IMG/VR virus record: IMGVR_UViG_3300037502_001447
Location: 1 to 35,356 of that record
Strand: one strand, 5' to 3'
Length of the DNA stretch: 35,356 nucleotides
Source of the DNA: a virus
This document shows positions 3,366 to 28,169 of this stretch, in pieces; the first letter of the stretch is position 1; each line of letters begins with the position of its first letter. The notes beneath the pieces were generated by a model. The model was not told the DNA's origin and searched no databases. It worked only from the letters and a program-made list of their open reading frames with translations. A program made the translations under genes and the position numbers.

Positions 3366-3371
3366 ATGACC

Positions 3372-3686
3372 ATGGGCGGCGAAAGTCACATCGAGAAGTA
3401 TTTCGTCTGGACGGTCGAGCGCATGGGCGGGACGGCTTACAAGTTCCGTTCACCCAACCACCGCGGCGTTGCCGACCGCATCGCCTGTCTGCCTGACGGA
3501 TCGGTGTGGTTCGTGGAACTCAAGGCGCCCGGCGGGCGGCTGGCACCGCTCCAGAAGCTGTTCGCGGCCCGCATGAAGGAACTCGGACAAAACTACACGG
3601 TATTATGGTCAAAGACGGAGATAGATGAATGGCGGCGTACTATAACGAGTTCGACCCCTACGCAGCCCAATGGCTGCGAAACCTGA
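3372..3686 (+). CDS. VRR-NUC domain nuclease
   Basis: A 104-residue single-domain nuclease of the VRR-NUC family (PD-(D/E)XK superfamily), which in phages acts on replication or recombination intermediates. Visible residues: an N-terminal SHIEKYFV helix, D35 in RGVADRIA, E49-x-K51 in WFVELKAPGG, and the following Q61 helix (LAPLQKLFAARM). This is the full length for phage members. I chose ATG 3372 over ATG 3366 because AGAGG then lies 6 nt upstream; with 3366 the two would overlap. It is the first gene of the rightward early operon, and its last 58 nt overlap the methyltransferase start. In comparable phages it sits next to the SNF2 helicase, as here. Confidence 0.9.
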   Translation: MGGESHIEKYFVWTVERMGGTAYKFRSPNHRGVADRIACLPDGSVWFVELKAPGGRLAPLQKLFAARMKELGQNYTVLWSKTEIDEWRRTITSSTPTQPNGCET

Positions 3687-4702
3687 TCGACAGTAAACTG
3701 ATAGCGGAAGGTGATGTAGATGACAGATCAATTCGGGACGTGGCTCCTGGCGACCTCAAGGGTTACACGCAGTGCCACTTCTTCGCGGGGGTCGGCGTCT
3801 GGTCCTACGCCCTCCGGCTCGCCGGATGGCCTGACGACCGCGCCGTCTGGACCGGCTCCTGCCCCTGCCAGCCGTTCTCCGCAGCGGGCAAGGGCAAGGG
3901 CTTTGAAGACGAGCGTCACCTCTGGCCTGAGTTCCATCGGCTCATCGCCGAGTGCCGCCCTCCAGTCGTGTTTGGAGAACAGGTTGCGAGCAAGGACGGC
4001 CTCCAGTGGCTCGACACTGTATGCGCTGACATGGAAGCATCGGGCTACGCCATTGGGGCGGCTGATCTGTGCGCTGCGGGCGTCGGCGCCCCGCACATCC
4101 GCCAGCGCCTCTGGTTTGTTGGAGAGCGGCTGGCCGACACCTCACGCACGGTCGAATGCGGGCGGAGAGTACAAAGACCCCGAGAAAGCCATAGCGCGGT
4201 TCTTGAACAAGGACCGGAACAACGATCTGAACGAGGCAGTGTTTCTAGCGACATGGCCAACGCCAGTGGTGAACGACGCGACGGGCAGCAAGTACGCATA
4301 CAGTCAAGGGAACAAGGACAAGCCGGTGTTGAAATTGCCGGGCACGGCGGACTTGACGGGCTGGAACACGCCCGCAGCCTCGGACGGGAACGGGGGCAAG
4401 CGACCGCACCCGGACACGACGATGACGGGCCAGCACCCGGAGGGCAGGAAGGTGAACATGGGTCTGGCCTCGCAGGTTCACATCGGCTTCATCAAGACGG
4501 AACCCACCCGACTAACGGCCACTGGCGAGATGCTGACTGGCTCTTCTGCCGGGATGGAAAGTGGCGGCCAGTTGAACCCGGCACATTCCCGCTGGCTCAT
4601 GGGGCTCCCGCCCGAGTGGGACGCCTGCGCGCCTACGGCAACGCCATCGTCCCGCAAGCAGCGGCCGAAGTGATTGGAGCCTATCTTGACGCTCGCCCTT
4701 AG
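3629..4702 (+). CDS. C5 cytosine-specific DNA methyltransferase
   Basis: A 357-residue DNA (cytosine-5) methyltransferase, likely protecting phage DNA from host restriction. Motif I is FFAGVGVW (51-58), motif IV is GSCPCQPFS with catalytic C80, motif VI is FGEQV (115-119), motif VIII is RQRLWFVG (158-165), and motif X is YGNAIVPQ near 335-342. Between 166 and about 300 the sequence is an odd G/R/E/Q/H-rich linker with LADTSR, MANASG and LEHARS repeats, where a target-recognition domain would be expected. The same DNA reads as a better-composed protein in the +1 frame (see 3720-4673). Start ATG 3629 has GGAG 8 nt upstream and overlaps the VRR-NUC gene. All core catalytic motifs are present, so activity is plausible. 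Confidence 0.9.
   Translation: MAAYYNEFDPYAAQWLRNLIDSKLIAEGDVDDRSIRDVAPGDLKGYTQCHFFAGVGVWSYALRLAGWPDDRAVWTGSCPCQPFSAAGKGKGFEDERHLWPEFHRLIAECRPPVVFGEQVASKDGLQWLDTVCADMEASGYAIGAADLCAAGVGAPHIRQRLWFVGERLADTSRTVECGRRVQRPRESHSAVLEQGPEQRSERGSVSSDMANASGERRDGQQVRIQSREQGQAGVEIAGHGGLDGLEHARSLGRERGQATAPGHDDDGPAPGGQEGEHGSGLAGSHRLHQDGTHPTNGHWRDADWLFCRDGKWRPVEPGTFPLAHGAPARVGRLRAYGNAIVPQAAAEVIGAYLDARP
3720..4673 (+). CDS. Long overlapping frame inside the methyltransferase gene, possibly a second protein
   Basis: A 317-codon open frame lies entirely inside the methyltransferase gene in a different frame. It starts at ATG 3720 with GGAAGG 8 nt upstream, a good ribosome binding site. Residues 1-135 are S/A/R/T-rich and look like the shifted reading of the methyltransferase core. 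Residues from about 140 on look like ordinary protein, with three repeats (GWPTPHARSN, TWPTPVVND, GWNTPAASD) and a C-terminus LNPAHSRWLMGLPPEWD that resembles C-terminal segments I recall from phage methylase-associated proteins. Similar overlapping frames seem common in phage methyltransferase loci, from memory. It could be a true dual-coded protein, the C-terminus of a frameshifted methyltransferase, or a conserved shadow. Confidence 0.45.
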   Translation: MTDQFGTWLLATSRVTRSATSSRGSASGPTPSGSPDGLTTAPSGPAPAPASRSPQRARARALKTSVTSGLSSIGSSPSAALQSCLENRLRARTASSGSTLYALTWKHRATPLGRLICALRASAPRTSASASGLLESGWPTPHARSNAGGEYKDPEKAIARFLNKDRNNDLNEAVFLATWPTPVVNDATGSKYAYSQGNKDKPVLKLPGTADLTGWNTPAASDGNGGKRPHPDTTMTGQHPEGRKVNMGLASQVHIGFIKTEPTRLTATGEMLTGSSAGMESGGQLNPAHSRWLMGLPPEWDACAPTATPSSRKQRPK

Positions 4703-6017
4703 ACCTTACCAAAACGACGCCGTCACGTTCCTCTACGAGCGCGACCGCGCCATGATCTTGGCCCCTGTGGGCGCGGGCAAGACGGCCATCACGCTCACGG
4801 CCATGGCCGAGACGCTGCGCGATGGCGCGGTCAAGCGGTGGCTGGTCGTAGCGCCCAAGCGCGTCTGCACAGACGTGTGGCCGGTCGAGCGTACCAAGTG
4901 GGCGGCGCACCTGACCATGTCCATCGCCGTCGGCAGCGCTGCCGATCGCCGCGCGGCCTTCGTCGCCGGAGGCGACATCGTCGTGTTCAACTACGACAAC
5001 CTCGACAAGCTGCCGGAACTCGACTTCGACGGCGTCGTCTTCGACGAACTGACCCGGCTCAAGAACCCGTCAGGCAAGCGGTTCAAAGCGCTCCTCAAGG
5101 TGCTGGACCGCTTCAAGATCCGCTGGGGCTTGACCGGCTCGTTCACGTCGAACGGCCTTGAGGACGTCTTCGGCCAGTGCAAAGTGATCGACGAGAAGCT
5201 GCTGGGCCGCACGAAGGGGGCCTTCATGCAACAGTATTTCGTCTGCATCAACCGCGACTTTGGCGAGTGGATGCCGCGTAAAGGAGCGCTGGAACAGGTG
5301 ATGACCCGCATCCGCCCTGCCACCTACGTGTTGGAACCCGGCGTCTATAAGGACAAGCTGCCGCCGTGCCATGTCGTCGAGATGCGCTGCGACATGCCCG
5401 ACCGCGAGCCATACGAGAAGATGAAGAGGGAGTTCATGTGGCAGGACATCACCGCCTTGTCGGCCGCTGCGGTCACGACTAAGCTCCAGCAGATGGCGGG
5501 CGGTTGGGTCTACGACAGCCAGACCGTCGCGTCCGACAGCCCCGGACAGTTCAAGACGGTCAAGGCCCCGCACTGGTTCTCGACGCACCGCTTCGACCTG
5601 CTCGACGAGGTGCTGGAGGGGAACCAGCGGGCGAACACCTTGATCGTCTACAACTTCATCGAGGAGTTGGCGGAACTGAAGCGCCGCTACCCCGGCACGC
5701 TGTGGACACTGGACGACGGCGCCGGTGTGGTTGAACGCTGGAACGCGGGCAAGATACCGCTGCTGGCCGTTCACCCTAAGTCGGCCGGTCACGGCCTGAA
5801 CCTCCAGCACGGCGGCAGCCATATGGTGTTCCTGTCGCTGCCGTGGTCGCTGGAACTGTATGAGCAGGTCGTCGGTCGTCTGCACCGCAGCGGGCAAGAG
5901 CATGACGTGTGGGTCTACGTCCTGCTGACCAACAAGACCATCGACGAGCGCATCTGGGCCGCGCTTGCCGACAAGCGGGCGATCTCAGACGTGGCCCTTG
6001 AGGAGCTAAAAGGATGA
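4686..6017 (+). CDS. SNF2-type DEAD/DEAH-like DNA helicase
   Basis: A 443-residue superfamily 2 helicase/translocase of the SNF2 group found in phage replication modules. The Q-like N-terminus LRPYQNDAV is followed by Walker A PVGAGKT (27-33), Walker B variant VVFDELTRLKN with D120-E121, motif III LTGSFTSN (149-156), and in the C-terminal RecA lobe NLQHGG and motif VI QVVGRLHRSGQEHD. Both lobes are complete. I chose TTG 4686 (MTLALRPYQ) because GGAG lies 6 nt before it; TTG 4674 is an alternative with a weaker site. The start overlaps the methyltransferase end by 17 nt. It likely works with the VRR-NUC protein on replication or recombination intermediates. Confidence 0.9.
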   Translation: MTLALRPYQNDAVTFLYERDRAMILAPVGAGKTAITLTAMAETLRDGAVKRWLVVAPKRVCTDVWPVERTKWAAHLTMSIAVGSAADRRAAFVAGGDIVVFNYDNLDKLPELDFDGVVFDELTRLKNPSGKRFKALLKVLDRFKIRWGLTGSFTSNGLEDVFGQCKVIDEKLLGRTKGAFMQQYFVCINRDFGEWMPRKGALEQVMTRIRPATYVLEPGVYKDKLPPCHVVEMRCDMPDREPYEKMKREFMWQDITALSAAAVTTKLQQMAGGWVYDSQTVASDSPGQFKTVKAPHWFSTHRFDLLDEVLEGNQRANTLIVYNFIEELAELKRRYPGTLWTLDDGAGVVERWNAGKIPLLAVHPKSAGHGLNLQHGGSHMVFLSLPWSLELYEQVVGRLHRSGQEHDVWVYVLLTNKTIDERIWAALADKRAISDVALEELKG

Positions 6018-11361: not shown

Positions 11362-12057
11362 TTACGCCGACGCAGTCGGTGTGATGGACCTGAGATAATT
11401 CATATACGGTTCGTTGGCGTAGTAACCGCCGACAGCCTGGCCGATGCCGCTGATGGCGTTGCCAATGGCGCCTGCCGTGCCCATCGCCTGCGCCGCCTGT
11501 ACGTTGCCGCGCTGCGCCGCAATGTCGGCCAGCGCCGCGCCGGTCGAGCCGACATTGGCGGCCTGCCCAGCGGCCGCGGCCTGACCAACGCCGGTCAGGT
11601 AGCGGTAAGGGTCCATGCGTGCTTCGCGCTCAGACAAGTAGCGACTGAACGCATTCTCGTATTCTTGGCTGGCAAGGTTCTGGCCAAAACGCGTAATGTC
11701 CTTGAGCGTGCCGCCAGACTGAAGCAGACCGCGGGCAGCGGCCGACCGTTCCAACGCCTTCATGCCTTCCGACATGCGGAACCCGTATCCGGGGTCAGCC
11801 TGAAACTGCTGCATTCCGAAAGACTGATACGGCGCCAGCTTCTGGTATTCAGCCAGCGCGGTCTTGCCAGCTTCGACGTAAGGCTTGGCCAGCGCGGTCT
11901 GCGCCGCAAGCGCGTTCTGCTGCGCCCGCTCGGCAGATTTAGCCGCGTCCTTCTGAGCCTTGGCGGCTTTGTTCGAGCCAACAATACCTGAGATTGCGCT
12001 ACCGGCGGCTCCAATCGCCGCGGCGCCAAGAATGGCTGCGCCTGTTGCTATTGCCAT
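11362..12057 (-). CDS. DNA-ejection protein, P22 gp7-like
   Basis: A 231-residue protein. The N-terminus is a Gly/Ala hydrophobic stretch (AAILGAAAIGAAGSAISGIVG) followed by a coiled coil of K/A/Q. The central signature DPGYGFRMSEGMKALERSAAARGLLQSGGTLKD (around residues 89-121) is characteristic of a family of podoviral DNA transfer/injection proteins. The C-terminus is again Gly/Ala-rich. It overlaps the GNAT gene by 10 nt. It is probably packaged in the head and ejected first to help form a channel in the host envelope. Confidence 0.8.
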   Translation of the reverse strand: MAIATGAAILGAAAIGAAGSAISGIVGSNKAAKAQKDAAKSAERAQQNALAAQTALAKPYVEAGKTALAEYQKLAPYQSFGMQQFQADPGYGFRMSEGMKALERSAAARGLLQSGGTLKDITRFGQNLASQEYENAFSRYLSEREARMDPYRYLTGVGQAAAAGQAANVGSTGAALADIAAQRGNVQAAQAMGTAGAIGNAISGIGQAVGGYYANEPYMNYLRSITPTASA

Positions 12058-12518
12058 GCCAGTGACCCTTTCATGTAAGTGCGCTCCATGGGTTGGAACC
12101 CGGCGCGCTTGTAAAACCTGTCCATCTTGTCCACACGGGCATCGTCCAACGCAATCATGAATACCGCAACGGCACCCATATCCTTAGCCCAATTCTGCAC
12201 GTTTTGAAATAGCATTTCCGCCGCCCCGCAACCCCGCGCTTCCGGCTCCAGCCACCAGAACAGTTCCTGCACCACCTCGCAGGCCGGATTGAAGTACAAG
12301 GGGTAGCACAGCGCCCCGGCCAAACCGACCGGCATCGCGTCGCGTAGGGCCAGCCAGACGCCCGCGCGAGGGTTGGCGAACATGCCGTGCAGCGTCACCG
12401 CCATGCCGTCACGGTCAAACGGTGCAACTTCTGCGACAGGAGACGCGCCGTGGAACCGCGCCGTCATGGCGAGACACGCCGGCAGGTCGTCCTTGCTGGC
12501 GCGGCGCACCTCAATCAT
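12048..12518 (-). CDS. GNAT-family N-acetyltransferase
   Basis: A 156-residue acetyltransferase. The N-terminal beta-alpha unit IEVRRASKDDLPACLAMT is typical, the acetyl-CoA loop is RGCGAA (94-99 region, in LEPEARGCGAAEMLF), and motif B shows DKMDRFYKRAGFQPMERTY, the usual GNAT FYxxxGF ending. The substrate is unknown. It is embedded in the structural operon with a TAATG start and a 10-nt overlap with the ejection gene, so it is expressed late with virion proteins. It may modify a virion or host protein; that is speculation. Confidence 0.88.
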   Translation of the reverse strand: MIEVRRASKDDLPACLAMTARFHGASPVAEVAPFDRDGMAVTLHGMFANPRAGVWLALRDAMPVGLAGALCYPLYFNPACEVVQELFWWLEPEARGCGAAEMLFQNVQNWAKDMGAVAVFMIALDDARVDKMDRFYKRAGFQPMERTYMKGSLAWQ

Positions 12519-12853
12519 TACGTCACCTCGCGGCCCGATACGCGAATGTTGATCGCGGACGCCGTTCCGGCGATGGTCGAGATAAACCCGCTGGGCGCCA
12601 GCACATGCCCAACCAGTTCGGGGAATGTGTAGGTCTCGGACGGCTGCAACGTCTTGGTCTTGACGATCAGGTTGTCGTTGCTTGCAGACCCCGTTGCTGT
12701 CACCAGGTTGACGCTGATGGTCGCCGCGGCCGCGGAATAGTTGGTGGCCGTGAACTTGTCGATGATGGCCGTGACGCCCGCCGCCGTGTATTGCGTGGTC
12801 TGGACATTTTCGGCCGTCTTGGCCGGAACAAGGACTTTAACCGTTACGGTCAT
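12518..12853 (-). CDS. Small beta-rich virion protein
   Basis: A 111-residue Thr/Ala/Val-rich protein with alternating strand pattern (TVTVKVLVPAKTAENVQ, YTAAGVTAIIDKFTATN, TYTFPELVGHVLAPSGFIS). It resembles small head or neck appendage proteins found after tail-fibre genes in podoviruses; there is no enzymatic motif. It is coupled by ATGA to the preceding gene and by TAATG to the GNAT gene. Virion role inferred from composition and position. Confidence 0.65.
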   Translation of the reverse strand: MTVTVKVLVPAKTAENVQTTQYTAAGVTAIIDKFTATNYSAAAATISVNLVTATGSASNDNLIVKTKTLQPSETYTFPELVGHVLAPSGFISTIAGTASAINIRVSGREVT

Positions 12854-13677
12854 GTTGCACCTCTGGAACTAATGTTATCTGTAACCGTCAGAATGATTGA
12901 CGGAATGGCAGGATGGACAGCCGTTGCAGGATCAGCGTGCAGCGACACTGACACGTCTGATACTTCCCACATCAACTCAAAATAGTCGCCAGCGTTCATG
13001 GATAACAGGAAATTCCACGCGGCGACGGCTTCGGTATTGTTACCCTCAATGCGCAGCACGGTTGCAGAATTGGGTATGTCGGTGCCGTTCTTGCGCAGCC
13101 AAATCCAAGCGTTGTGTGCACCGCCGGCCGTGTTGATCAACTGCGCCGAAAACTGAATGTTGTAGATGTTGATCGTGTCCACATAAACGCGGGACGTCGG
13201 TGAGCCAATGTACACGCCGTTGGTGATGTCGGTCGTATTGAACGTCATGCTGTAGGCTGTATTAGTTAACGCGGCAGTCTGGTCGGTCGTGTCGTAAAAC
13301 GATCCGTACCGCAGTCGAGGCAACTGCGGCGTGTACATAGGCGCTACTTCTAGCGCCTGAAGGCTAGCCTGTAGATTAGTTGGATCAAACACTGCCTGCT
13401 GCGAAGCTTCCAGCGCCTGCAATGACGTAAGGATCGGCCCAAGATCAGAAGGCAGGATACCAGAAGACAGTTGCGCGTCGGATAAAATGGCGTTAGCATC
13501 AACGGCTTCGCCCGGCGGTCCTTTTTGAATGTCTTCCAGCGACAACGTGCTTTGCCCAGTCTGGTTAAACAGACTGAGCAGGAACAGATACCACTCACGC
13601 GCAATCAAACCTGTTTTTGGGTCTGTCAGCGGTACGCGCGGCGGCGTGATGTTGGTGATGTTAGGCACCTGTGCCAC
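12850..13677 (-). CDS. Neck/tail appendage protein with C1q-like C-terminal domain
   Basis: A 275-residue protein. The N-terminal segment VPNITNITPPRVPL...IAREWYLFLLSLFNQTG is a common start of podoviral neck or tail appendage proteins. A coiled coil (ILTSLQALEASQQAVFD, LQASLQALEV) follows, then a beta-sandwich from about residue 125 (FYDTTDQTAALTNTAYSM ... WIWLRKNGTDIPNS ... MNAGDYFELMWEV) of the kind seen in C1q/TNF-like trimeric domains. It overlaps the gp10-like gene by 17 nt. Probably a trimeric virion appendage. Confidence 0.72.
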   Translation of the reverse strand: MAQVPNITNITPPRVPLTDPKTGLIAREWYLFLLSLFNQTGQSTLSLEDIQKGPPGEAVDANAILSDAQLSSGILPSDLGPILTSLQALEASQQAVFDPTNLQASLQALEVAPMYTPQLPRLRYGSFYDTTDQTAALTNTAYSMTFNTTDITNGVYIGSPTSRVYVDTINIYNIQFSAQLINTAGGAHNAWIWLRKNGTDIPNSATVLRIEGNNTEAVAAWNFLLSMNAGDYFELMWEVSDVSVSLHADPATAVHPAIPSIILTVTDNISSRGAT

Positions 13678-15292
13678 TCACCTGTAGTTCAGCACCCATA
13701 ATGGCAATCTTCACGGGGTCTGTTCCAGACACCTCGTACACACGGTCACGAATTTTAGTCGTCATGCCAAGACGGCGCCAGATCGTGCGGTAGCCAAACT
13801 CGCCAATCTTACCCATAGACCGCCAATGTTCGTTCGACCAAGTGTGCCCGCCATCATCAGACCAACGCAGCATGACCTGCGGGTTATACCCCGGCGCCGC
13901 AGTGTACGCGGTTGTGGTCAGGTAAACCGGCGGCGTTGTGTCATACGGTGCGTCAGGTACGTCGGCAATCGTCTCAAAATTGTCGTTGGCTTCAGTCGTG
14001 ATAACCTCGCCGCTTTCCGTAACAAGGTCGTTCTGTACGTATTCGGCCAGCAAAATATCGCCGCTTTCCGTAATCAAGTCTTCGGCGTCGTATGCCGGGT
14101 ATTGCTCCAGACCAACGCCGGTTTCACAATCAAGCTGGAGCGCGTGCTGCGCCGTACGGCGCAACGTGTTTTCGCCGGTCGGCAGCGCGCGCCACGAACG
14201 AAGCCAGCGCTGCGTTTCGCCGTTGTACGAATATGTGTCGGGGTCTACAGCATAGATGTTGCCGTTTTCGTAATCGCCTAGCACGTTTTCATTGTTGAAG
14301 AAGACCTGCGCTTGCCCGCGGTATCGTGTCCAAACGTCATCCCAGCCGGCGCGCTCATGCCAAGCGCCTGTCGAAGCGTCGTAGACCCACGTCTTTCCGG
14401 CGGATGGAAACACAAGCACGTAGAACGAGTGACCGTCCTGCTGGTATGTATAGCCAATGGCATCCGACATCGTGCCGTACTGCTGAATTTGCCACTCAAC
14501 AGAATGCGTCGAGATGCGCTGCCCTTGGTATCCGTTTGCTACATAAACGATACCTTGCCCGCGGAAATCCTTGCCCAACCAGTAAATCTGGTTGTTCATC
14601 TTGGCAACGCTGTACCGCGCCGCGCAGCCAAGCTCGTTGTATGCGCCTTGAATACGGACTAACGGAAAATCCGACAGCCCCGCGTTGTACCACACTTCAG
14701 TCGAGTTGTTACCAAACAACCAAACTTCGCGGTGGTCTACGATCATGCTGACAATGTTGTCCGGGTCGCCTTCAGCGCTGGCAAAGTCCAACGGGTCGAT
14801 GCTGGTGCCGTCAAGCAGTGCCGTCACCCAAACGCGCTGGCTATTGGGTTCGATGAAAACGAAGTAGCCGTCAAGGTAATCAACAACCGACGCACCAGGA
14901 AAATCAGCGTCTGTAATCTGCCCAAAAACGCCTGTTGAAGTGTTGTAAATGTACCCTGTCGGATTAGCCGCAATCATGATTTGCGTGCCGTTGTCTGCCA
15001 TGGATACAGGGCCAGACCCAAGAATAATTCCGAGCGCCGTTACAGTGTAGCTGGTTGTGACGCGGTAGAGCGTGTTGCCTGACACCACATACATGTTGCC
15101 CGCATGTCCCCACATGCCGCGGATCGGGCCTGTGCCGACAGTTACGCGAAGGGTCAAACCAGGCACGCGCTGAAGAAAAGCCGGTTGTTTGCCGCCTTCT
15201 GGTACAACTTCGGGAAACAAGTTTACCATGCGGTTGTCCGCAGCGTTAACGCTGCGGGCCACATACGCGCTGCCGAGGATCGGCGTCTGCAT
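13661..15292 (-). CDS. Packaged DNA stabilization protein, P22 gp10-like tail hub
   Basis: A 543-residue protein of the gp10 family, which plugs the head and builds the short tail after packaging. N-terminal PILGSAYVARSVNAADNRMVNLFPE and the C-terminal block QVMLRWSDDGGHTWSNEHW ... YRTIWRRLGMTTKIRDRVYEVSGTDPV are signatures. A beta-propeller-like middle has repeated aromatic strands. Residues about 395-440 hold an unusual insertion with two ITESGD-like repeats. The length is slightly above P22 gp10 (472 residues), consistent with that insertion. It lies next to gp4- and fibre-like genes, as in P22. Confidence 0.92.
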   Translation of the reverse strand: MQTPILGSAYVARSVNAADNRMVNLFPEVVPEGGKQPAFLQRVPGLTLRVTVGTGPIRGMWGHAGNMYVVSGNTLYRVTTSYTVTALGIILGSGPVSMADNGTQIMIAANPTGYIYNTSTGVFGQITDADFPGASVVDYLDGYFVFIEPNSQRVWVTALLDGTSIDPLDFASAEGDPDNIVSMIVDHREVWLFGNNSTEVWYNAGLSDFPLVRIQGAYNELGCAARYSVAKMNNQIYWLGKDFRGQGIVYVANGYQGQRISTHSVEWQIQQYGTMSDAIGYTYQQDGHSFYVLVFPSAGKTWVYDASTGAWHERAGWDDVWTRYRGQAQVFFNNENVLGDYENGNIYAVDPDTYSYNGETQRWLRSWRALPTGENTLRRTAQHALQLDCETGVGLEQYPAYDAEDLITESGDILLAEYVQNDLVTESGEVITTEANDNFETIADVPDAPYDTTPPVYLTTTAYTAAPGYNPQVMLRWSDDGGHTWSNEHWRSMGKIGEFGYRTIWRRLGMTTKIRDRVYEVSGTDPVKIAIMGAELQVSGTGA

Positions 15293-15295
15293 TGG

Positions 15296-16123
15296 TTATG
15301 CCACCGTAGCGCCGCGCACGCCGATAACCGCCCACCCTTGCGTGAAATACTGTAGGGTAACGCTATCACCGACGTTCGTAAATGTGATCGTGCTGTAACC
15401 GACACGGGTCGTCGGCGTGAGAATGCCGGTGTCGGCGCCTGCCGCTTCTGCAACATAGGCAATCGTTTTGACCTGACCGACAGTGCCGTTGGCAAGCGTC
15501 AGCGCGTTGCCCGTGGCTGTAGAGGTAAAGGCTGTTGCAAAACTGGTGACGTCAACAGCGCCCGCACCCGAGAGCGACTGCACGTTACCAATGACCGCGC
15601 CGTTGATAGTCTGATTGCCCGTAAACGTCTGCGCGGCGTCCGTGCGCGCGATGGTTGCGCTGGTGGACGGGAACGTCATGACCGTGCTGTCAGTGCCCGC
15701 CAGCGTCAGTGAGTGGTTGGCCGTCAGCGTCTTGCCATCTGCAATCGTAAGCGTGGCACTGGTTGCAGGTGCTGTAATCGCGACATTGTTGACTGACGTT
15801 GCCGTAGCAACGCCGAGTACCGGCGTAATAAGGGTTGGCCCGCTTGCCAAAACAACGTTTCCGGTTCCGGTTGCCGCCGTTGAGCCGGTTCCGCCGCGCG
15901 CGACTGACAGTGTGCCGGTCGTTCCGGCGATAATCGGCAAGCCCGTGCAATTGGCAAGTGTCCCCGAGGACGGCGTCCCAAGGACCGGCGTCGTCAGCGT
16001 TGCGTTCGTAAACAACAGCGTATTGGTCAGTTTCTTGGTGACGCCGCCCTGTACGATAGGGATTTCATCTGTGCCGGCGGCGGCTACTGCGGCAGGAAGC
16101 TGGGAGATGGCAACGGTGGACAT
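15296..16123 (-). CDS. Fibre-like virion protein with TPVLGTPSSGTL repeats
   Basis: A 275-residue Thr/Ala/Gly-rich protein with no charged core. The repeats TTPVLGTPSSGTLANCTG and ITPVLGVATATSVNNV, plus SVARGGTGSTA, are characteristic of phage fibre shafts. The C-terminus (RVGYSTITFTNVGDSVTLQY, GWAVIGVRGATV) looks like a beta-rich cap. It lies between the gp4-like and gp10-like genes. It could be a tail needle equivalent or a head/neck fibre; I cannot decide. The start has AGGTAAACC upstream, a reasonable site. Confidence 0.75.
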   Translation of the reverse strand: MSTVAISQLPAAVAAAGTDEIPIVQGGVTKKLTNTLLFTNATLTTPVLGTPSSGTLANCTGLPIIAGTTGTLSVARGGTGSTAATGTGNVVLASGPTLITPVLGVATATSVNNVAITAPATSATLTIADGKTLTANHSLTLAGTDSTVMTFPSTSATIARTDAAQTFTGNQTINGAVIGNVQSLSGAGAVDVTSFATAFTSTATGNALTLANGTVGQVKTIAYVAEAAGADTGILTPTTRVGYSTITFTNVGDSVTLQYFTQGWAVIGVRGATVA

Positions 16124-16131
16124 GGTTTACC

Positions 16132-16842
16132 TCAGTAGTTTCCGGCAAATATTGAGTAGCGCTGACGCGTGCCGACGATGCTGTAAGGCAGCGCCATGAT
16201 GTCGTCGGGGTTGTTGATACGCTTCAAGTTGCGCTTAGACGTCATGGCAATGCGCTGTACCTGCCGCGACGGCTCGACGCCAAACTCAGGTGCCAATTCG
16301 CAGGCCAGATTGTAGCGGAAGCAGCGCAGATAACCCGGCGGAAACGCCAAGTCAGTGGCGAGATTGGCCGGCTGGGTTAGCTCCTGCACCGAAACGATAT
16401 GGAACTCCAACACCTTTGTCGGCACCGGGTACACATACATCTCAATGTTTGGGTAGGTCATGTTAACCCACAGCACCTGCGGGTAGGTGCTGGTGACGGT
16501 TTTGACCGCAATGCCGTTATACTGCTGCTGGTTGATCAACTTCAGACCATAGGAGATGCCCGACGCCGGATCGCGAAAATACGTGCTGTCGTCGATCATC
16601 ACCGGACGCGTACCGACAATGTCGCCGGTCGGGCCAAAAGTGCGGAAGCGCTGCCCCGGCGGCCAAGTCTCAATCTGGTCAATCGTAGAGAAGACGGCGA
16701 GGCGCTCCGTATTCCAACTGTCGATCATCTGGTTTAGGGCAAGCAGCGCGTCCTGCGCTGTTTCGGAAGAAGGCGTTTCGCCTTCCGCCAACTGCCCGAT
16801 TAGACGAAGAGAGCCGTTAATGATGTCGCCAGCCGTTGCCAT
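16132..16842 (-). CDS. Head completion / tail accessory factor, P22 gp4-like
   Basis: A 236-residue protein of the gp4 family, which binds the portal ring after packaging and forms the platform for the tail hub. N-terminal GDIINGSLRLIGQLAEGETPSSETAQDALLALNQMIDSWN (4-43) is diagnostic; the middle (PQVLWVNMTYPNIEMYVYPVP) and the LAFPPGYLRCFRYNLACELAPEFG helix (164-187) match as well. The extended C-terminus is typical of the family. ATG 16842 follows the upstream gene by 1 nt. Confidence 0.92.
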   Translation of the reverse strand: MATAGDIINGSLRLIGQLAEGETPSSETAQDALLALNQMIDSWNTERLAVFSTIDQIETWPPGQRFRTFGPTGDIVGTRPVMIDDSTYFRDPASGISYGLKLINQQQYNGIAVKTVTSTYPQVLWVNMTYPNIEMYVYPVPTKVLEFHIVSVQELTQPANLATDLAFPPGYLRCFRYNLACELAPEFGVEPSRQVQRIAMTSKRNLKRINNPDDIMALPYSIVGTRQRYSIFAGNY

Positions 16843-16843
16843 T

Positions 16844-17086
16844 CTATTCGTCCTTTGACGCGCGCGGCCTACCGCGACGCCGCGGGGCCTCGCTCATGAC
16901 ATTAACCTCAAGTTCCGGGTCTGGCAAGTCAACCGCAAAGTCGTCCATGCCGTCGTCAGGCTGCGAATTAACCATGTCTTCCGGGTCAAACCGGACCCAG
17001 CCGTTGTTTTCGTCATACTGCGCTTCCATCTCCATTGAGGCGATTTTAACGCCGTGCTTGGGGTGCATCAGATAGATTGCGGTCAT
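16844..17086 (-). CDS. Small conserved phage protein of the head-completion region
   Basis: An 80-residue protein. IYLMHPKHGVKIASMEMEAQYDENNGWVRFDP is a pattern I associate with small podoviral proteins next to gp4, followed by an acidic middle (DDGMDDFAVDLPDPELE) and a basic AT-hook-like end (APRRRGRPRASK). Function is unknown. The RGRP element could contact DNA, which is inference. AAGGTGG lies 7 nt before ATG 17086. Confidence 0.7.
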   Translation of the reverse strand: MTAIYLMHPKHGVKIASMEMEAQYDENNGWVRFDPEDMVNSQPDDGMDDFAVDLPDPELEVNVMSEAPRRRGRPRASKDE

Positions 17087-17103
17087 TGTTCCACCTTATG
17101 AGG

Positions 17104-17129
17104 AACAGGCGGCCCGAGGACCGCCTGTT
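17104..17129 (-). terminator. Intergenic hairpin after the 17133 gene
   Basis: Perfect 9-bp inverted repeat AACAGGCGG / CCGCCTGTT (17104-17112 and 17121-17129) with an 8-nt loop. On the minus strand it falls between the stop codon at 17133 and the ribosome binding site of the next gene, and no T-run follows. It may be a weak attenuator or an RNA-stabilising structure. Confidence 0.45.
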
Positions 17130-17132
17130 TGG

Positions 17133-17426
17133 TTAGGCAATCAGGTTCAACGCCTGGAGGCGAGTTTCTAGTTCGGATACGCGGGTCTGAAGATTAGCAA
17201 TAACCGCCAGAACCGAGTTACCTTCGTCCTTGGTGACAAAACCAAAAGCGCTGGTGTTCACCAAATCCTGAATGGCATAGTCGGGCGTGCCGGGAGCCGT
17301 TGACGTAATCGTCGTAAGCTGGGCCGTCAGCGCCGCGCCCTTGGCCGAATAGACCGGGTTAGCGATGGTGGCGCCGTCGAGGTACGGGTCCTCGTAGGCA
17401 ACACCAACAGGCTTCGTATTGGGCAT
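17133..17426 (-). CDS. Small virion protein with C-terminal coiled coil
   Basis: A 97-residue protein. N-terminal VAYEDPYLDGATIANPVYSAKG, a hydrophobic Thr/Ala middle, then a regular heptad helix at 72-94 (VLAVIANLQTRVSELETRLQAL), probably forming a trimer. Between two hairpins and next to the coat region, it is likely a head fibre or decoration protein. AAGGAG lies 8 nt before the ATG at 17426. No enzymatic motif. Confidence 0.72.
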   Translation of the reverse strand: MPNTKPVGVAYEDPYLDGATIANPVYSAKGAALTAQLTTITSTAPGTPDYAIQDLVNTSAFGFVTKDEGNSVLAVIANLQTRVSELETRLQALNLIA

Positions 17427-17447
17427 GTGGTTCTCCTTGAAGGATGA

Positions 17448-17471
17448 GGCGGGCAGCTTGCGCTGCCCGCC
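17448..17471 (-). terminator. Intergenic hairpin after the decoration-like gene
   Basis: Perfect 10-bp stem GGCGGGCAGC / GCTGCCCGCC (17448-17457, 17462-17471) with the 4-nt loop TTGC. On the minus strand it follows the stop codon at 17478 and is followed by TCATCCTT, a weak T-containing stretch. It may be a partial terminator that lowers expression downstream of coat, or a stabiliser of the coat transcript. Confidence 0.5.
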
Positions 17472-17477
17472 GTTGCG

Positions 17478-17906
17478 TTAGGCGATACGATAGATCGTAT
17501 ACGCCGCATCGCCCGTCTTGCGCCAACGGAAGATGCCCGAGGTGTTGTTGGTCTTGGTCAGCGCGTCCTGGATGACGTCGTTGCCGACGAGGGTGTTGCC
17601 CGCGCCAGCCGTAAACGTCACATCGTTGCCTGCGTCGTCGCCGATGTTGATGAAGGCGCAGTCAAAGGTCGAGCCAACCTTGAGGCTGGGAAATGCGGCG
17701 TCCAGCAGCGCGCCCGTCGGGAACACATAGGTGCCCGCAGAGGTGCTGCCGGGGTCCATCGTGCAAACGCCGTTTGCAAGATCGGCCGCCGTGATCGTCA
17801 CCGACGCGCCCGTGAGCGCAACCGGAGCCGAAGAGTTGTAAAAGCTGATCTCGCCAAGGTTGCCGTCGCCAACCTGATAGCCACCAGCGCCATTCGGAAG
17901 TGCCAT
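17478..17906 (-). CDS. Probable capsid decoration or head protein
   Basis: A 142-residue Gly/Thr/Ala-rich beta protein directly after the coat gene, 26 nt apart. Visible strands include VALTGASVTITAADLANG, FPSLKVGSTFDCAFINIGD and DVTFTAGAGNTLVG, with the C-terminal TSGIFRWRKTGDAAYTIYRIA that is common in phage decoration and fibre-tip proteins. No catalytic motif. Role inferred from composition and position. Confidence 0.7.
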   Translation of the reverse strand: MALPNGAGGYQVGDGNLGEISFYNSSAPVALTGASVTITAADLANGVCTMDPGSTSAGTYVFPTGALLDAAFPSLKVGSTFDCAFINIGDDAGNDVTFTAGAGNTLVGNDVIQDALTKTNNTSGIFRWRKTGDAAYTIYRIA

Positions 17907-17932
17907 GTGCGTGTTCTCCTATTCGCTACCTG

Positions 17933-19138
17933 TTAGCCCCAAAGACGGCAAGCCATCGGGGCGCGGATGACCGAATAACCATACAGTACGTCGATACGGC
18001 AGGGCATACGGTCGTTGTTGATGTCGTACTGGCGCACAACGCGCATCGAGATGCCGTTGTGAACCTGCCGCGAGGCCATATCGACACCGTTCGGAAGCAG
18101 CAGGTCGGCCGTAGCGAACGAGATGGCATCCTTGTGGTAGATCAGGTTCTGCGGGTAGTAGGTCGAGGCCGCGCCAAGGAACGTGACCGTGGCAGACGCC
18201 TGCGGGAAGCTGTCCACCGTAGCCAGCGCGTTGGCCGAGGTGTAGATCGCCGGGCTGATCTTGACGGCGGTGTAGGCACCAGCAACAGCCGTAGCGGCTT
18301 CGGTAACGACAAACTGCTGAAGCGCACCAGTGGACTGACGGGTCTGCGGGTTGACCGCATACACGTTAGCAATGGTAAACACGTCGCCGACCGCAATCGT
18401 CTGCGTGCCGGTGCCGGTGATGTTCAGCGTGGACTGACCCTGCGTAGACACGGTGGTCGTGACAGAGTGAGCGCCGGTGCGAGAACCCGTCTGGTGCTGC
18501 TGGATCGACTGAGACATGTTGATCTCTTCGTACCCCAGCACGCCTTCACCCATCATGCCGTTCTTGAACTGACGGGAGATGGTATCGACCGGGTTGAAGA
18601 GGCCCTTCATGCCTTCGACCAGACCCGCGTTAGCGGCCGGGTTCACGGTCGCATAGCGGTTCGGCATCATGGCGGCGAACTCGTTCAGCTTCTGCTGGCC
18701 CTGAAGAAGGACGAGCGAAGTGGCCGGGGTCGTGCCGGGGGTGCCGACGGACGAGTAGATGGACTTGTAGGCGTTGGCGACGTCAGCGTCGATAGAGGAC
18801 GCAAGCTGCGAGATACGCGGCTTGAGCACACGATCAGCGAAGTCGTCGAGCTGCATGGTAAGTTCGGCAGACGTGAAGTTCACGCCGATGTGCTTCTGCG
18901 AAGCAACCGTCAGCGTCGTAAACTGCTCGTTGTCGTCCTGCACCTGAAGGGCAGCACCGTCGGTCACCAGCGCACGGTCGGGCAGACGGATGCGGAGGGT
19001 GGAACCGATCTTGGCGCCTTCGACGGCGAAGCTGTCGTCGTACTGACGGTTGACGTTACGGGTGATGACCAGGTTGTTCTCAAGGATTTCGAGAGCCTTC
19101 CGGGTGATCATGTCAATAGTAAGAAGTGAGTTAGACAT
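17933..19138 (-). CDS. Major capsid protein, P22 coat protein family
   Basis: A 401-residue coat protein with an HK97 fold of the P22 gp5 group. N-terminal MITRKALEILENNLVITRNVNRQYDDSFAVEGAKIGSTLRIRLP is the family signature, followed by the E-loop type region and an inserted Ig-like domain position (around 200-300: STLNITGTGTQTIAVGDVFTIANVYAVNP). C-terminal MRVVRQYDINNDRMPCRIDVLYGYSVIRAPMACRLWG also matches. P22 coat is 430 residues, so the length is normal. It follows the scaffold gene by 21 nt with AAAGGT upstream of the ATG. Confidence 0.95.
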   Translation of the reverse strand: MSNSLLTIDMITRKALEILENNLVITRNVNRQYDDSFAVEGAKIGSTLRIRLPDRALVTDGAALQVQDDNEQFTTLTVASQKHIGVNFTSAELTMQLDDFADRVLKPRISQLASSIDADVANAYKSIYSSVGTPGTTPATSLVLLQGQQKLNEFAAMMPNRYATVNPAANAGLVEGMKGLFNPVDTISRQFKNGMMGEGVLGYEEINMSQSIQQHQTGSRTGAHSVTTTVSTQGQSTLNITGTGTQTIAVGDVFTIANVYAVNPQTRQSTGALQQFVVTEAATAVAGAYTAVKISPAIYTSANALATVDSFPQASATVTFLGAASTYYPQNLIYHKDAISFATADLLLPNGVDMASRQVHNGISMRVVRQYDINNDRMPCRIDVLYGYSVIRAPMACRLWG

Positions 19139-19159
19139 TTATCCTTACCTTTCAAGGAC

Positions 19160-19936
19160 TTATCGTCTGCGTTGTGCCTCGTACTTCTTGATCTGGCGCA
19201 GCCGTTCCTGCTCAATCCACTCCGACGTTGACATGCTCTTTACAGAACGCGGGTCGGTGGTGTCATACGCAGGCGAACCTGTGGTTCTGGCCGTCACCGG
19301 AGCAATAGGCGCCGGGGCGGTTGAGGTCTTTTTGGCCGGAGGGTTCGCGGCCAGTCTGGCCTCGACCTTTCCGATTTCCCGTGCCTGCAAGAGCGGGCTG
19401 AGACGCGCAATCCGTTCGGCTTCCTTTGGGTTCGACCCGAGCCAGTAAATGACGTCGGGACCGATCTCGGATGCCTGAATGGTCTGCGCCATCGTTTCCG
19501 TGACGGGGAGCTTCGGGTTGTAGGCGACCTGTTCAAAGTCGTCGTACTTGTTCCGGGCGTCCTCTTCACGGTCCTGATATGCGTCGAGCATTGCGGCCCG
19601 TTCAGCTTCGGCTTCGCGTTGGGCGAGGAGTTCCTGCGCCTTGCGTTCGGCCATCGCGTCGGCATAAGCCTGGGCGTTGGTAAAATCGTCGGGCTTCAGG
19701 GGTTCAGGCGGCGGTGCCGCCGGAACGACTGGAGCCTTGGACTTCTGCTCGCGTTCCCATTTCCGTTGCTCTCTTGCGAGACGCTTGCTTACGATGGCAT
19801 CCAACTCTTCTTGCGTGAAGGTTTTGGGCGCCTCCGCAGGCTTCGGTTCCGGCGAAGAATTATCTGTTTCGGGCGCAGAGGCGGCCGTGGCCTCCGGTTC
19901 CGGCGCGGGCGCACCCGCTAGTTCGTTCTCAATCAT
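19160..19936 (-). CDS. Scaffolding protein
   Basis: A 258-residue, highly charged, low-aromatic protein placed just before coat. The N-terminus is a Pro/Glu/Ala-rich disordered stretch, then a helix (FTQEELDAIVSKRLAREQRKWERE, 39-62), a long coiled coil (MAERKAQELLAQREAEAERAAML) and a basic C-terminal helix pair (STSEWIEQERLRQIKKYEAQRRR) like the coat-binding helix-turn-helix of P22 scaffold. It drives procapsid assembly and leaves before packaging. A candidate promoter precedes the gene. Confidence 0.87.
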   Translation of the reverse strand: MIENELAGAPAPEPEATAASAPETDNSSPEPKPAEAPKTFTQEELDAIVSKRLAREQRKWEREQKSKAPVVPAAPPPEPLKPDDFTNAQAYADAMAERKAQELLAQREAEAERAAMLDAYQDREEDARNKYDDFEQVAYNPKLPVTETMAQTIQASEIGPDVIYWLGSNPKEAERIARLSPLLQAREIGKVEARLAANPPAKKTSTAPAPIAPVTARTTGSPAYDTTDPRSVKSMSTSEWIEQERLRQIKKYEAQRRR

Positions 19937-19983
19937 TCACATACCTTTCGGTTCCTGGCGTACCCTGCCAGTAGGGGTAGTTT

Positions 19984-20012
19984 TCCGTAACATATTTTGT
20001 TACAGTGGTCAA
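19984..20012 (-). promoter_or_regulatory. Candidate late promoter before scaffold and coat
   Basis: On the minus strand TTGACC (20007-20012), a 17-nt spacer and TACGGA (19984-19989), in the only sizeable gap (76 nt) in this part of the late operon. The spacer contains GTAAC-N7-GTTAC. The -35 hexamer is the same TTGACC as at 3337. The -10 is weak, so this is a suggestion only. Confidence 0.3.
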
Positions 20013-20318
20013 TCAAGCGTAATAACTGATGTTTAGCTTCGCGCTGGCCGCCGTTTCGATAAACTTTATGCGGGTCAAGTCGCCGTCATACTGAAACGGA
20101 ACCCCCGCTGCCAGCGGCATACCGACAGATGCGGTGGGGTCCGTGCCATCGTCGCGCCAGCGCACGTCCTCGGTCTCGGCAATAATTAGCGCGAAGGTAG
20201 GCTGCTGTTTATTGCCGTTCTTGTCTACAGTCGGAACAGTCAGGCCAACCGCTGAACTGAGCGTTGAAATCTGCTGGTAGCCGATGCACGACGTAACAGC
20301 TTTAAGGGTCATTGCCAT
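20013..20318 (-). CDS. Small conserved virion protein
   Basis: A 101-residue protein. GYQQISTLSSAVGLTVP, ALIIAETEDVRWRDDGTDPTASVGMPLAAGVPFQYDGDL and IKFIETAASAKLNISYYA form a pattern common in small phage virion proteins, sometimes annotated as decoration or fibre-associated. It is all beta, without charge clusters. GGAG lies 9 nt upstream of ATG 20318; ATG 20312 is an alternative. It ends exactly at the candidate scaffold promoter. Confidence 0.72.
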   Translation of the reverse strand: MAMTLKAVTSCIGYQQISTLSSAVGLTVPTVDKNGNKQQPTFALIIAETEDVRWRDDGTDPTASVGMPLAAGVPFQYDGDLTRIKFIETAASAKLNISYYA

Positions 20319-20320
20319 GG

Positions 20321-22354
20321 TTAAAATCTCCGTTTTTCGGTGAAGGAGCGAAGGTCATACTGTACGTTGGTATTCGCTACAGGGACAGGAATGGCGAACA
20401 GCCAGCCCAAATTATTCCCTGCATCAACGTTTCCGTTGGTCGCGTATGCTTCCCACGTTGCGCCGCCGGTAGCACTGCTATCCTTGATAGATACGTAGGA
20501 CACTGAAACGGTGCCGCTGGGCTTGCTAAATGTAGCCCTTGTGCCACTTACGGTAGTGTCCAGAGTAATGAGGTTGCCCGGCGTGCCAGACAAAGAGAAG
20601 GCACTAACAGTCTGCGTTGTGCCAGCCGTAAGCCTGATAGTCGCAGGCTGCACCGTGTTGGTGATGTTGGCAAAGGTGCTGCTCTGGGCAATCGTAAGAG
20701 TTCCAGCCCCGCCTTGGTTCAGTGTTGGCCAAGAATAGCCGCCGCCTTGAAACGTCTTTGCGGTGGCGCTGGTCATACTGATAGTGGCTGTGGACGGGCT
20801 GACAGTTGTACCTGTGCCCGGTGCGTTCCAAAATGACGTTACCGTCCATAGCCCGCTGCCGAGCGTGATTGTCTTAGTACCGCTACCGCTTGCGGACAAC
20901 GATCTAATCGTTACGTTGTTGTTATTGGCGTCAAAAGTTCCGGTAGTAACTCCTATATCAAGGCTTGAGGTGTACGCATCCCCTAACCTAAACGTACCTG
21001 TCACCGCATTCGCGGCAGCCGTAAATGTGATCGTTTTACCAGCGGTAGTGAAGACCATTGTGCCACGACCAGCAAAATTTTGTTGGCCTCCGCCGGATAC
21101 GGTCACACCAGACCCTAGGGTGTAGGAACCGTAACGATCCTGAATGGCGGAATGGTTTATTGTGATGCCAGTAGTCCTAGTCGAACAATCAACCGCGCTA
21201 ATGTTATAGATTAGGCTATGGTCAAGCGTTCCTGTCAATGCGGTGTCGTTATTTATAACTGCCGTATCTTGGGCCAGCGGAAAATTGTTGTCCGAGCCGG
21301 CCCCGCCAGAAGTCAACGCCCAAGAGGATGACCCCTGCCAAGTAGTACTTGTTCCCACACGATAAACAGTCTTTGCCGCTGGAAATGTAATGCCGCTGTT
21401 TCCCCCACAATCACCGGCTCTTGTTGGAGTAGCCCCAGCAGCAGATCCAGCAAGTGTAATATCTCGGAAGTCGCAGTCATTGGCTGATATGGCGTTTGCA
21501 GTAATAGTTCTAACTGTTCCAATAACGCTGGAACGAACAAAACCGCGCGCGATAGCAGACGATCCAGCGCAAGTAAACGTGCCGTTAACTGTCTGGTCTC
21601 CACCTAACGAAAGTTGAGACAATCCTGTAACACTCGCTACCAGTGTCAAATTATTAAAGGTGTGCGATGTTGAAATTGATCGCGTGCCAGTATTGGCAGT
21701 AGTAAACGAGCAGTTGTAAAAAGTCAGAGATATGGATGAGTTAATCGAACCAGACAGACCAGTAGCGTTTATCTGAGATGTTCCGGCGTCAAATGATAGA
21801 TCGCTGCCGGTTACAGTAAAATTCCCGCTAAGAGTTACCGTTGATGATCCAAGCTGGATAGCTCTAGTCAAAGACCCGTTGCTATTGATATTAGCAGATG
21901 TCAAATTGTAGTTTGCTGTAGCAAACGTTCCCTGCGTAACTGTTAAGTTATTAGTACCAATATTAAGCGCGTCACCTAGTGTGACGGTAATTCCAGCACC
22001 ATCAATGGTTACGTTTCTTACGTTCTTTCCAGACGAGATAAAGGTCCCTGTTCCGGTAAACGTAATTGTACCAGTGTATGAGTATGTCATACCGGCAACC
22101 AAGGTAATGCTGCCAGCTACTGAAATAGCCGCAGACCCAGCAAGCGTCCCGGTAAAACCTGTGCAGTTGATGGACTTTGCGCCAGTATTACCGGCTGCAA
22201 TCGTTACAGTCCCTGTCGAGAGATTATCAAAGAAGACATCATCAGCAGATGTAGGGACGGTCTCCCCACCAGTACCACCAGACGAAGCAGCCCATTTTGT
22301 TCCTGCTGTGCCATCCCATGAGGCTGTACCACCAACCCAATACCTGTCAGCCAT
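20321..22354 (-). CDS. Large beta-helical fibre protein (YWVGGTASWDGT repeats)
   Basis: A 677-residue Ser/Thr/Gly/Asn-rich protein made almost wholly of short beta strands. I chose ATG 22354 (MADRYWVGG), which overlaps the preceding stop by 8 nt; an in-frame start 21 nt further up exists. The module RYWVGGTASWDGTAG ... SGGTGGETVPTSADDVFFD (4-45) recurs in degenerate form near 335-380 (VYRVGTSTTWQGSSS ... SGGAGSDNNFPLAQD), so the protein seems internally duplicated. It is probably a receptor-binding or adhesin-like fibre on the virion. No enzymatic motif is evident. The AT content is clearly higher than in neighbouring genes. Confidence 0.72.
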   Translation of the reverse strand: MADRYWVGGTASWDGTAGTKWAASSGGTGGETVPTSADDVFFDNLSTGTVTIAAGNTGAKSINCTGFTGTLAGSAAISVAGSITLVAGMTYSYTGTITFTGTGTFISSGKNVRNVTIDGAGITVTLGDALNIGTNNLTVTQGTFATANYNLTSANINSNGSLTRAIQLGSSTVTLSGNFTVTGSDLSFDAGTSQINATGLSGSINSSISLTFYNCSFTTANTGTRSISTSHTFNNLTLVASVTGLSQLSLGGDQTVNGTFTCAGSSAIARGFVRSSVIGTVRTITANAISANDCDFRDITLAGSAAGATPTRAGDCGGNSGITFPAAKTVYRVGTSTTWQGSSSWALTSGGAGSDNNFPLAQDTAVINNDTALTGTLDHSLIYNISAVDCSTRTTGITINHSAIQDRYGSYTLGSGVTVSGGGQQNFAGRGTMVFTTAGKTITFTAAANAVTGTFRLGDAYTSSLDIGVTTGTFDANNNNVTIRSLSASGSGTKTITLGSGLWTVTSFWNAPGTGTTVSPSTATISMTSATAKTFQGGGYSWPTLNQGGAGTLTIAQSSTFANITNTVQPATIRLTAGTTQTVSAFSLSGTPGNLITLDTTVSGTRATFSKPSGTVSVSYVSIKDSSATGGATWEAYATNGNVDAGNNLGWLFAIPVPVANTNVQYDLRSFTEKRRF

Positions 22355-22541
22355 CAACTTGCTCCTCTGCAACAAGGGAGGTTATAGTGGCAACCCAGTT
22401 GTCAAACCTCTGCTGCTTCATAGCTTCCAGGCCAGCCTCACCAAGAGCATCGATCTCCTCTTGCGTAAGATTAAGAGCATCTCGCAGATTGTTAGCGCCG
22501 TCTGTCTTTGTAAACGGTATGTTGATGAGTTTGACAGCCAT
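22347..22541 (-). CDS. Small acidic helical protein in the receptor-binding cassette
   Basis: A 64-residue protein with two helices (NNLRDALNLTQEEIDALGEAGLEAMKQQ, NWVATITSLVAEEQ). It lies 2 nt after the tailspike gene and overlaps the fibre gene by 8 nt. I do not recognise a family. A chaperone or adaptor for the fibre is possible from position only. Confidence 0.6.
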   Translation of the reverse strand: MAVKLINIPFTKTDGANNLRDALNLTQEEIDALGEAGLEAMKQQRFDNWVATITSLVAEEQVDG

Positions 22542-22543
22542 GA

Positions 22544-24493: not shown

Positions 24494-24502
24494 GTTCAAT
24501 CC

Positions 24503-24868
24503 TTACGCGAGGAATTTCAGCTTGTAGATTGTTGTATAATACAACCCGACGATTTCGTCGATGACGTTCTGAAGCGGGGTGCATTCCCGGTCCACAATGT
24601 CGTACCGCGTTTTTTCGATCTGGTCAGCCTGACGTTCCAGAAACTCCAGAACGTTGTTTGACTTGTCGGCCGACATGAGCGCAACCGGGCCGATCAGGCC
24701 GTACTTGCCCTGATACATTTCGGCAAATTTGTCAGCCAAATCAACGATTTCGTCGTAAAACTTGCCCAGTGCCTTGTGCTTGGCAAAGGAGCGTGTGTTC
24801 AGGTGCGCTGAGTGCGTAACGTCGCGCGCCAGGAACAGCATACCTAGAAACTTATCGCAATTGCTCAT
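24503..24868 (-). CDS. DUF5856 family protein, four-helix bundle
   Basis: A 121-residue all-helical protein. LGMLFLARDVTHSAHLNTRSFAKHKALGKFYDEIVDLADKFAEMYQGKYG (8-57) matches the DUF5856 family of phage proteins, followed by helices LEFLERQADQIEKT and LQNVIDEIVGLYYTTIYKL. His and Asp/Glu residues are placed along the helices in a way reminiscent of ferritin/Dps-like bundles, but no function is known. It is coupled to portal by ATGA. Confidence 0.83.
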   Translation of the reverse strand: MSNCDKFLGMLFLARDVTHSAHLNTRSFAKHKALGKFYDEIVDLADKFAEMYQGKYGLIGPVALMSADKSNNVLEFLERQADQIEKTRYDIVDRECTPLQNVIDEIVGLYYTTIYKLKFLA

Positions 24869-27737: not shown

Positions 27738-27879
27738 TTTTGGCCCCTTTCTTAGCCGCCGCGCGGCGCTTCACGCTGTAGGCGATGGCCGCAGCCTGCT
27801 TCGGAGGCTTTCCGGCCTTGATCTCAGCGGCGATATTCTTGCGAAACGCCCCCTTGGAGGCTGATTTGACCAGCGGCAT
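27730..27879 (-). CDS. Small Lys/Ala-rich phage protein (49 residues)
   Basis: A 49-residue protein ([20 protein letters not shown]...[16 protein letters not shown]) read by hand. It matches a pattern I know from small basic phage proteins in the packaging region ([17 protein letters not shown]). It starts 1 nt after the previous stop and overlaps the next gene by 8 nt, so coupling is likely. It is helical and basic; function unknown. Confidence 0.75.
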
Positions 27880-27880
27880 G

Positions 27881-28168: not shown

Positions 28169-28169
28169 T

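Follow-up and report, generated by a model that had tools for sequence, protein, structure and literature searches.

Two selected reading frames overlap in a viral cytosine methyltransferase gene and are predicted to encode a two-polypeptide enzyme

Introduction

Can one stretch of viral DNA maintain two proteins in two frames of the same strand, and do the two proteins then form a single enzyme? The question is raised by a cytosine methyltransferase gene in a stretch of 35,356 nucleotides (IMG/VR record IMGVR_UViG_3300037502_001447, positions 1 to 35,356; hereafter the window), where a second frame is open across nearly the whole gene. The original prediction proposed either that two frames are under selection, or that a programmed frameshift joins a frame-1 catalytic half to a frame-2 target-recognition half. 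Its frame coordinates, frame-2 length, GGAAGG site, repeats, motif X and frame-2 ending all hold on recheck. The frame-1 gene is here called alpha, and the nested gene in the +1 frame is called beta. The features of the locus are as follows:

3629..4702, plus strand: alpha, C5-cytosine methyltransferase; frame 1, 357 codons; motifs I, IV, VI (GEQV), VIII and X
3706..3722, plus strand: putative beta start, GGAAGGTGATGTAG-ATG, with Shine-Dalgarno GGAAGG (3706-3711) and ATG 3720
3720..4673, plus strand: beta, nested gene with W-x-T-P repeats and motif IX; frame 2 (+1 to alpha), 317 codons
3723..3971, plus strand: N-terminal part of beta, kept open and weakly constrained; overlaps alpha motifs I and IV
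3972..4118, plus strand: first doubly selected segment; alpha motifs VI-VIII and the conserved beta N-terminal element GSTLYALTWK...LRAS
4122..4505, plus strand: beta W-x-T-P repeat and target-recognition region, where alpha is an unselected open linker (from omega, stops and codon-position rates)
4499..4633, plus strand: second doubly selected segment; beta motif IX and alpha HWRDADWLFCRDGKWRPVEPG...RVGRLRA
4634..4657, plus strand: motif X YGNAIVPQ in alpha (frame 1), tail APTATPSSRK in beta (frame 2)

Results

The frame-1 gene

C5-cytosine methyltransferases are recognised by motifs I, IV (PCQ), VI (ENV), VIII (QxRxR) and X (GN) in this order. Alpha carries FAGVG (I), PCQPFS (IV), GEQV (VI), IRQR (VIII) and YGNAIVPQ (X) in the same order, and its matches to the Pfam family DNA_methylase (2e-16) and to M.HhaI agree with this assignment. 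The claim that frame 1 has all the catalytic motifs needs correction: motif VI is the variant GEQV, not ENV, and motif IX is absent from frame 1, a motif IX-like LNPAHSRWLMGLPPEWD sitting at 4572-4622 in frame 2. In the one-chain form, motif IX and the target-recognition domain (TRD) lie between motifs VIII and X of the same chain, an arrangement that alpha does not have. Since split C5-methyltransferases exist, the missing motif excludes the one-chain form, not membership of the family. In the structure model of alpha, M.HhaI is matched by residues 1-170 together with the C-terminal motif X helix (Z 14.8, 166 aligned, rmsd 2.9). The large domain and the C-terminal helix are modelled with confidence, and the linker is disordered (pLDDT below 50).

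The nested gene

Searched separately against viral databases, as had been proposed with the original prediction, the two proteins lead to different families: alpha to phrog_363 along its full length (1.5e-88), and beta to phrog_1008 (1.5e-36), also labelled DNA methyltransferase, and to 207 phage records. Three copies of a repeat, at 4130, 4253 and 4361, read WPTPH, WPTPV and WNTPA in frame 2, and LADT, MANA and LEHA in frame 1. Profile alignment places beta on the part of the single-chain ShiLan gp70 that holds the repeats and motif IX (probability 94%, E 1.3e-7), and on the beta of Paenibacillus phage DevRi (probability 98%, E 1e-13); the ShiLan alignment shows beta to be a homologue of the part of one-chain methyltransferases that carries TRD and IX.

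PDB sequence searches with beta and the beta profile as queries gave chance matches only. AlphaFold modelled beta alone poorly (mean pLDDT 58.8), and Foldseek gave no fold match for the model; half of a domain might give such a model, which is in itself no evidence for this. The low-confidence model was not read as a new fold.

Selection along the two frames

A total of 160 viral loci was retrieved, frame 1 and the C-terminal half of frame 2 each bringing in 80, with E-values that are relative. Selection was followed in 94 loci, the window and its viral homologues, which are related sequences whose counts are not independent, and omega was obtained by a four-class count over disjoint nearest pairs. 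Before the beta start, omega was 0.18 in the alpha frame and 1.23 in frame 2. The values for alpha and frame 2, respectively, were 0.20 and 0.52 across the N-terminal part of beta (alpha aa 41-112), 0.13 and 0.27 at alpha motifs VI-VIII (3972..4118), 0.97 and 0.36 in the W-x-T-P region (only 8 pairs), 0.23 and 0.20 at the motif IX segment (4499..4633), and 0.13 and 0.30 at motif X. The conserved parts of beta have omegas of 0.20-0.36.

Mismatch rates by frame-1 codon position showed the usual third-position excess over alpha aa 1-120 (0.29-0.45). Over alpha aa 161-300 the fastest position was frame-1 position 1, the wobble position of frame 2 (0.23-0.30), and position 3 was slow (0.02-0.15); over alpha aa 301-340 every codon position was slow. 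The same switch of rates recurs in two other beta families. The codon of frame 2 at 3972 is NTG, and alpha V119 is GTT, in 94 of the 94 loci. Since omegas and codon-position rates switch along the gene, each frame is the coding one along its own stretch, and in two segments both are constrained. Both frames are maintained, in the 94 loci as in an independent set of 69 loci from bacterial genomes, and the selected frame changes from alpha to beta and then to both. The homologue alignment and per-frame omegas that had been called for give each frame a selected part of its own. The parallel repeats noticed in both frames are W-x-T-P repeats of frame 2; what frame 1 reads from them evolves like a side effect free of selection (alpha omega 0.97).

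With the beta protein and the local codon usage held fixed, the alpha linker of 92 loci should contain 333 frame-1 stops; none was observed, and the linker is likewise open in 61 of 61 distinct loci found via beta alone. Upstream, over alpha aa 39-115, 115 frame-2 stops were expected given the alpha protein, and only one was observed. The third frame, which controls for composition, does not avoid stops in the same test (304 observed, 278 expected); relatedness of the sequences makes all these stop counts non-independent. Frame-2 stops are frequent up to alpha aa 38 and vanish afterwards. The +1 frame of about 110 distinct homologues of the locus runs open over nearly the whole gene, usually for 780-1200 nt, vs usually only 110-430 nt for the third frame. 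The openness of two frames exceeds chance.

Breaks of frame in a few loci (L096, L052, L091 and L120) speak against a two-polypeptide reading. Single loci carry a stop in the beta frame (L096, after STLF; L052, at alpha aa 60). In L091, L092, L120 and L324 the frame is broken within the W-x-T-P region, so that the end with motif IX falls in a different one; real decay, indels or assembly errors may account for this.

The start of beta

GGAAGG lies 8 nt before ATG 3720, with an anti-Shine-Dalgarno duplex energy of -7.0 kcal/mol. A start was counted where a frame-2 ATG at alpha aa 27-43 had a Shine-Dalgarno site (SD) at or below -4.5 kcal/mol and the frame was open onward. Such a start is present in 87 of the 94 loci, vs 19.9 +/- 3.7 under synonymous reshuffling and 0 of 94 in the third frame. 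The best ATG lies at alpha aa 31 (48 loci), 37 (30) or 41 (9), each site having its own SD built from different alpha codons. The ATG at aa 31 taken alone is unconserved (GAC in 33/94), and the pattern becomes clear once aa 37 and 41 are counted. Among 69 bacterial-genome loci that were unused in finding the pattern, 61 obey it, and the set holds one frame-2 stop over aa 39-114 vs 229 in the third frame. Codon-position rates, omega, stop avoidance and these independent genomes strongly support the original suggestion that two frames are under selection.

Distribution and architectures

Relatives of frame 2 were found in the 207 phage records, in 13 plasmids and in bacterial genomes, from which 80 loci were retrieved; almost all are proteobacterial. 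With three beta queries, from three divergent families, beta was +1 to the motif IV frame in 231 of the 238 loci in which motif IV was found. Paenibacillus phages DevRi and Lily, Stenotrophomonas SOVA965 and Pseudomonas Shamal have a +1 beta despite very different catalytic halves. Depositors annotated both frames in K1ind2, PhiXhv-5, PhiXhv-18, DevRi and Lily ('g62 internal gene'). The records of SOVA965 (L171) and Shamal (L172) list beta and miss or mislabel alpha, whose frame is open, and that of phiKX2 (L170) annotates only beta or part of it. A megablast of the N15 alpha against E. coli genomes gave no match.

Relatives of ShiLan gp70 are fused in one frame in 15 loci and nested in 22, where alpha keeps X and the +1 frame has IX; in 12 others alpha ends early and IX is in the +1 frame. 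Five of these 12 were read (L410, L411, L419, L420 and L427), and a motif X-like GNGV or GNGVC follows IX in the +1 frame. Compared by architecture and not by a tree, these loci suggest that the +1 overlap is old and that motif X has fared differently among them, in whichever direction the forms changed. In ShiLan gp70 itself (L168, 1009-2178), with TRD, IX and X fused, the +1 frame still has a 153-codon open stretch, SSWK...FSETWP..GMTRSG..LLPTP, which resembles the beta N-terminal element and is perhaps a relic of nesting.

Alternative explanations

A programmed +1 ribosomal frameshift, fusing the catalytic half of alpha to the recognition half of beta in one chain, would fit a +1 relation that is constant across loci, a joined order resembling one-chain methyltransferases such as ShiLan gp70, and the invariant codons xxT and GTT at alpha aa 115 and 119. 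A shift would be marked by a second frame open only downstream of a conserved site; here frame 2 is open for about 75 codons upstream of any such site, with an ATG and SD of its own, and the fused product would be without motif X. Moreover, a frame-2 Leu/Met explains the invariant codons, and DevRi keeps a similar Leu pattern. No conserved slippery site came to notice, short of a dedicated search for one. The frameshift is thus the part of the original prediction that finds no support, and we judge it very improbable. Separate initiation of beta is better supported, because frame 2 has its own ATG and SD, near aa 31, 37 or 41, and is stop-free for about 75 codons upstream of its conserved part. 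An internal start at the invariant NTG 3972, giving a short beta of about 233 aa in place of one from ATG 3720, draws on the strong frame-2 amino-acid conservation that begins there; yet this codon has no SD (mean duplex energy +0.3), and the upstream stop avoidance and the conserved ATG with SD would be left unexplained. Such a start is unlikely, and the NTG more simply represents a conserved Leu/Met.

It could also be argued that frame 1 alone is functional and that GC content and codon usage keep frame 2 open, given a GC content of about 62% and long antisense ORFs elsewhere in the window. The selection pattern already contradicts this, as the linker omega is low in frame 2 and not in frame 1 and the third frame shows no stop avoidance, and the probability left to this explanation is close to nil. 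Beta might, on the other hand, be selected for another role, such as regulating the methyltransferase or a separate function; its model alone has no recognisable fold, and the two-part enzyme is predicted from sequence. Against this, alpha has no motif IX and is unselected where the TRD is expected; beta, for its part, shares homology with the TRD/IX part of one-chain enzymes, and in relatives the two are fused or linked. We consider another role quite unlikely.

Discussion

By sequence analysis, two frames are maintained at this locus, with a switch of selection, a conserved start region and a +1 rule. It is highly probable that the locus encodes one C5-cytosine methyltransferase as two overlapping-frame polypeptides, in the manner of M.EcoHK31I. 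Alpha would supply the SAM-binding and catalytic large domain, including the catalytic cysteine, and motif X. Beta would begin independently at ATG 3720 with its own SD and supply the W-x-T-P target-recognition region and motif IX, reading the DNA. The two probably assemble as a heteromeric enzyme that modifies phage DNA; expression, assembly, DNA target and role are what we infer. Each chain would bear a translated stretch whose own sequence is hardly selected, if at all, since the DNA at that place serves the partner. The target-recognition region seems to lie on beta, and the earlier view of frame 2 as the target-recognition half finds strong support.

The small gene of M.EcoHK31I is reportedly nested within the large gene in another frame, and beta is nested in the same way, in the +1 frame inside alpha. 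In its published description, M.EcoHK31I (YGGCCR; Lee, Kam and Shaw 1995) is a two-polypeptide C5-methyltransferase with motifs I-VIII and X on the larger polypeptide, motif IX on the smaller and the TRD placed on the large subunit (PMC3404938). Compared by motif content, the larger polypeptide, with I-VIII and X, and the smaller one, with IX, are alike in both systems. Unlike what that account gives for M.EcoHK31I, the alpha stretch matching the TRD is without amino-acid-level selection and the TRD is apparently on beta, which suggests re-examining the location of the M.EcoHK31I TRD. Alpha and beta also differ in being phage-borne, with no restriction enzyme identified adjoining them within the window.

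M.AquI (CYCGRG) is a C5-methyltransferase naturally split after motif VIII (PMC3404938). It too consists of two polypeptides, but its motif X is on the small subunit, whereas here it is on alpha; the five actinophage relatives named above, whose +1 frame holds both IX and X, resemble the M.AquI topology. The single-chain actinophage proteins ShiLan gp70, Rabbitrun gp78 and Magnar gp43 share the order of catalytic half, WMMG motif IX and motif X, with LPTP repeats between catalytic half and motif IX in ShiLan gp70; unlike alpha and beta, they lie wholly in one frame. An out-of-frame protein within a phage methylase gene has been described in the hidden HNH endonuclease of the ShiLan domain (PMC11855218). 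That protein is an inserted homing endonuclease, whereas beta would be part of the methyltransferase itself.

Since M.EcoHK31I has been published as two polypeptides, the kind of enzyme is already known. No paper on the phage-wide nested form was found in the open-access literature, outside which most subscription journals lie, and REBASE curators may know of it. What appears to be new is the selection switch, the turnover of start sites and the placing of the TRD on beta. We think it fairly likely that a large part of phage and prophage C5-methyltransferases is obligately two-frame, with beta carrying the whole target-recognition region and the matching stretch of alpha, published as TRD for M.EcoHK31I, serving only as an open linker, with a start that moves among three SD-ATG sites, and with fused, split and nested forms interchanging round the same +1 overlap. 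Long same-strand overlaps of this kind are rare, and here selection visibly changes frame along one gene, in a pattern that recurs across three divergent families of phages and among prophages of many Proteobacteria. As most records annotate one frame, sometimes the wrong half, alpha-only annotation, cloning and specificity prediction would fail.

Genomic context

A VRR-NUC-like ORF (3366-3686) overlaps the alpha start at 3629. The beta stop TGA (4671-4673) abuts TTG 4674 of a SNF2-like helicase (4674-6017), and alpha ends inside the helicase. This chain of overlaps, from the VRR-NUC-like ORF through alpha and beta to the helicase, suggests translational coupling. On the minus strand, 11362-29938 has PHROGs matches to a DNA ejection protein, head-closure Hc3, major head, portal and terminase, a structural module that points to a tailed phage, possibly a podovirus of the P22-like type. 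Two long ORFs lie antisense on the plus strand, one of 891 aa (24937-27612) to the portal gene and one of 543 aa (647-2278) to DUF2800/exonuclease-like genes; both are probably GC-driven.
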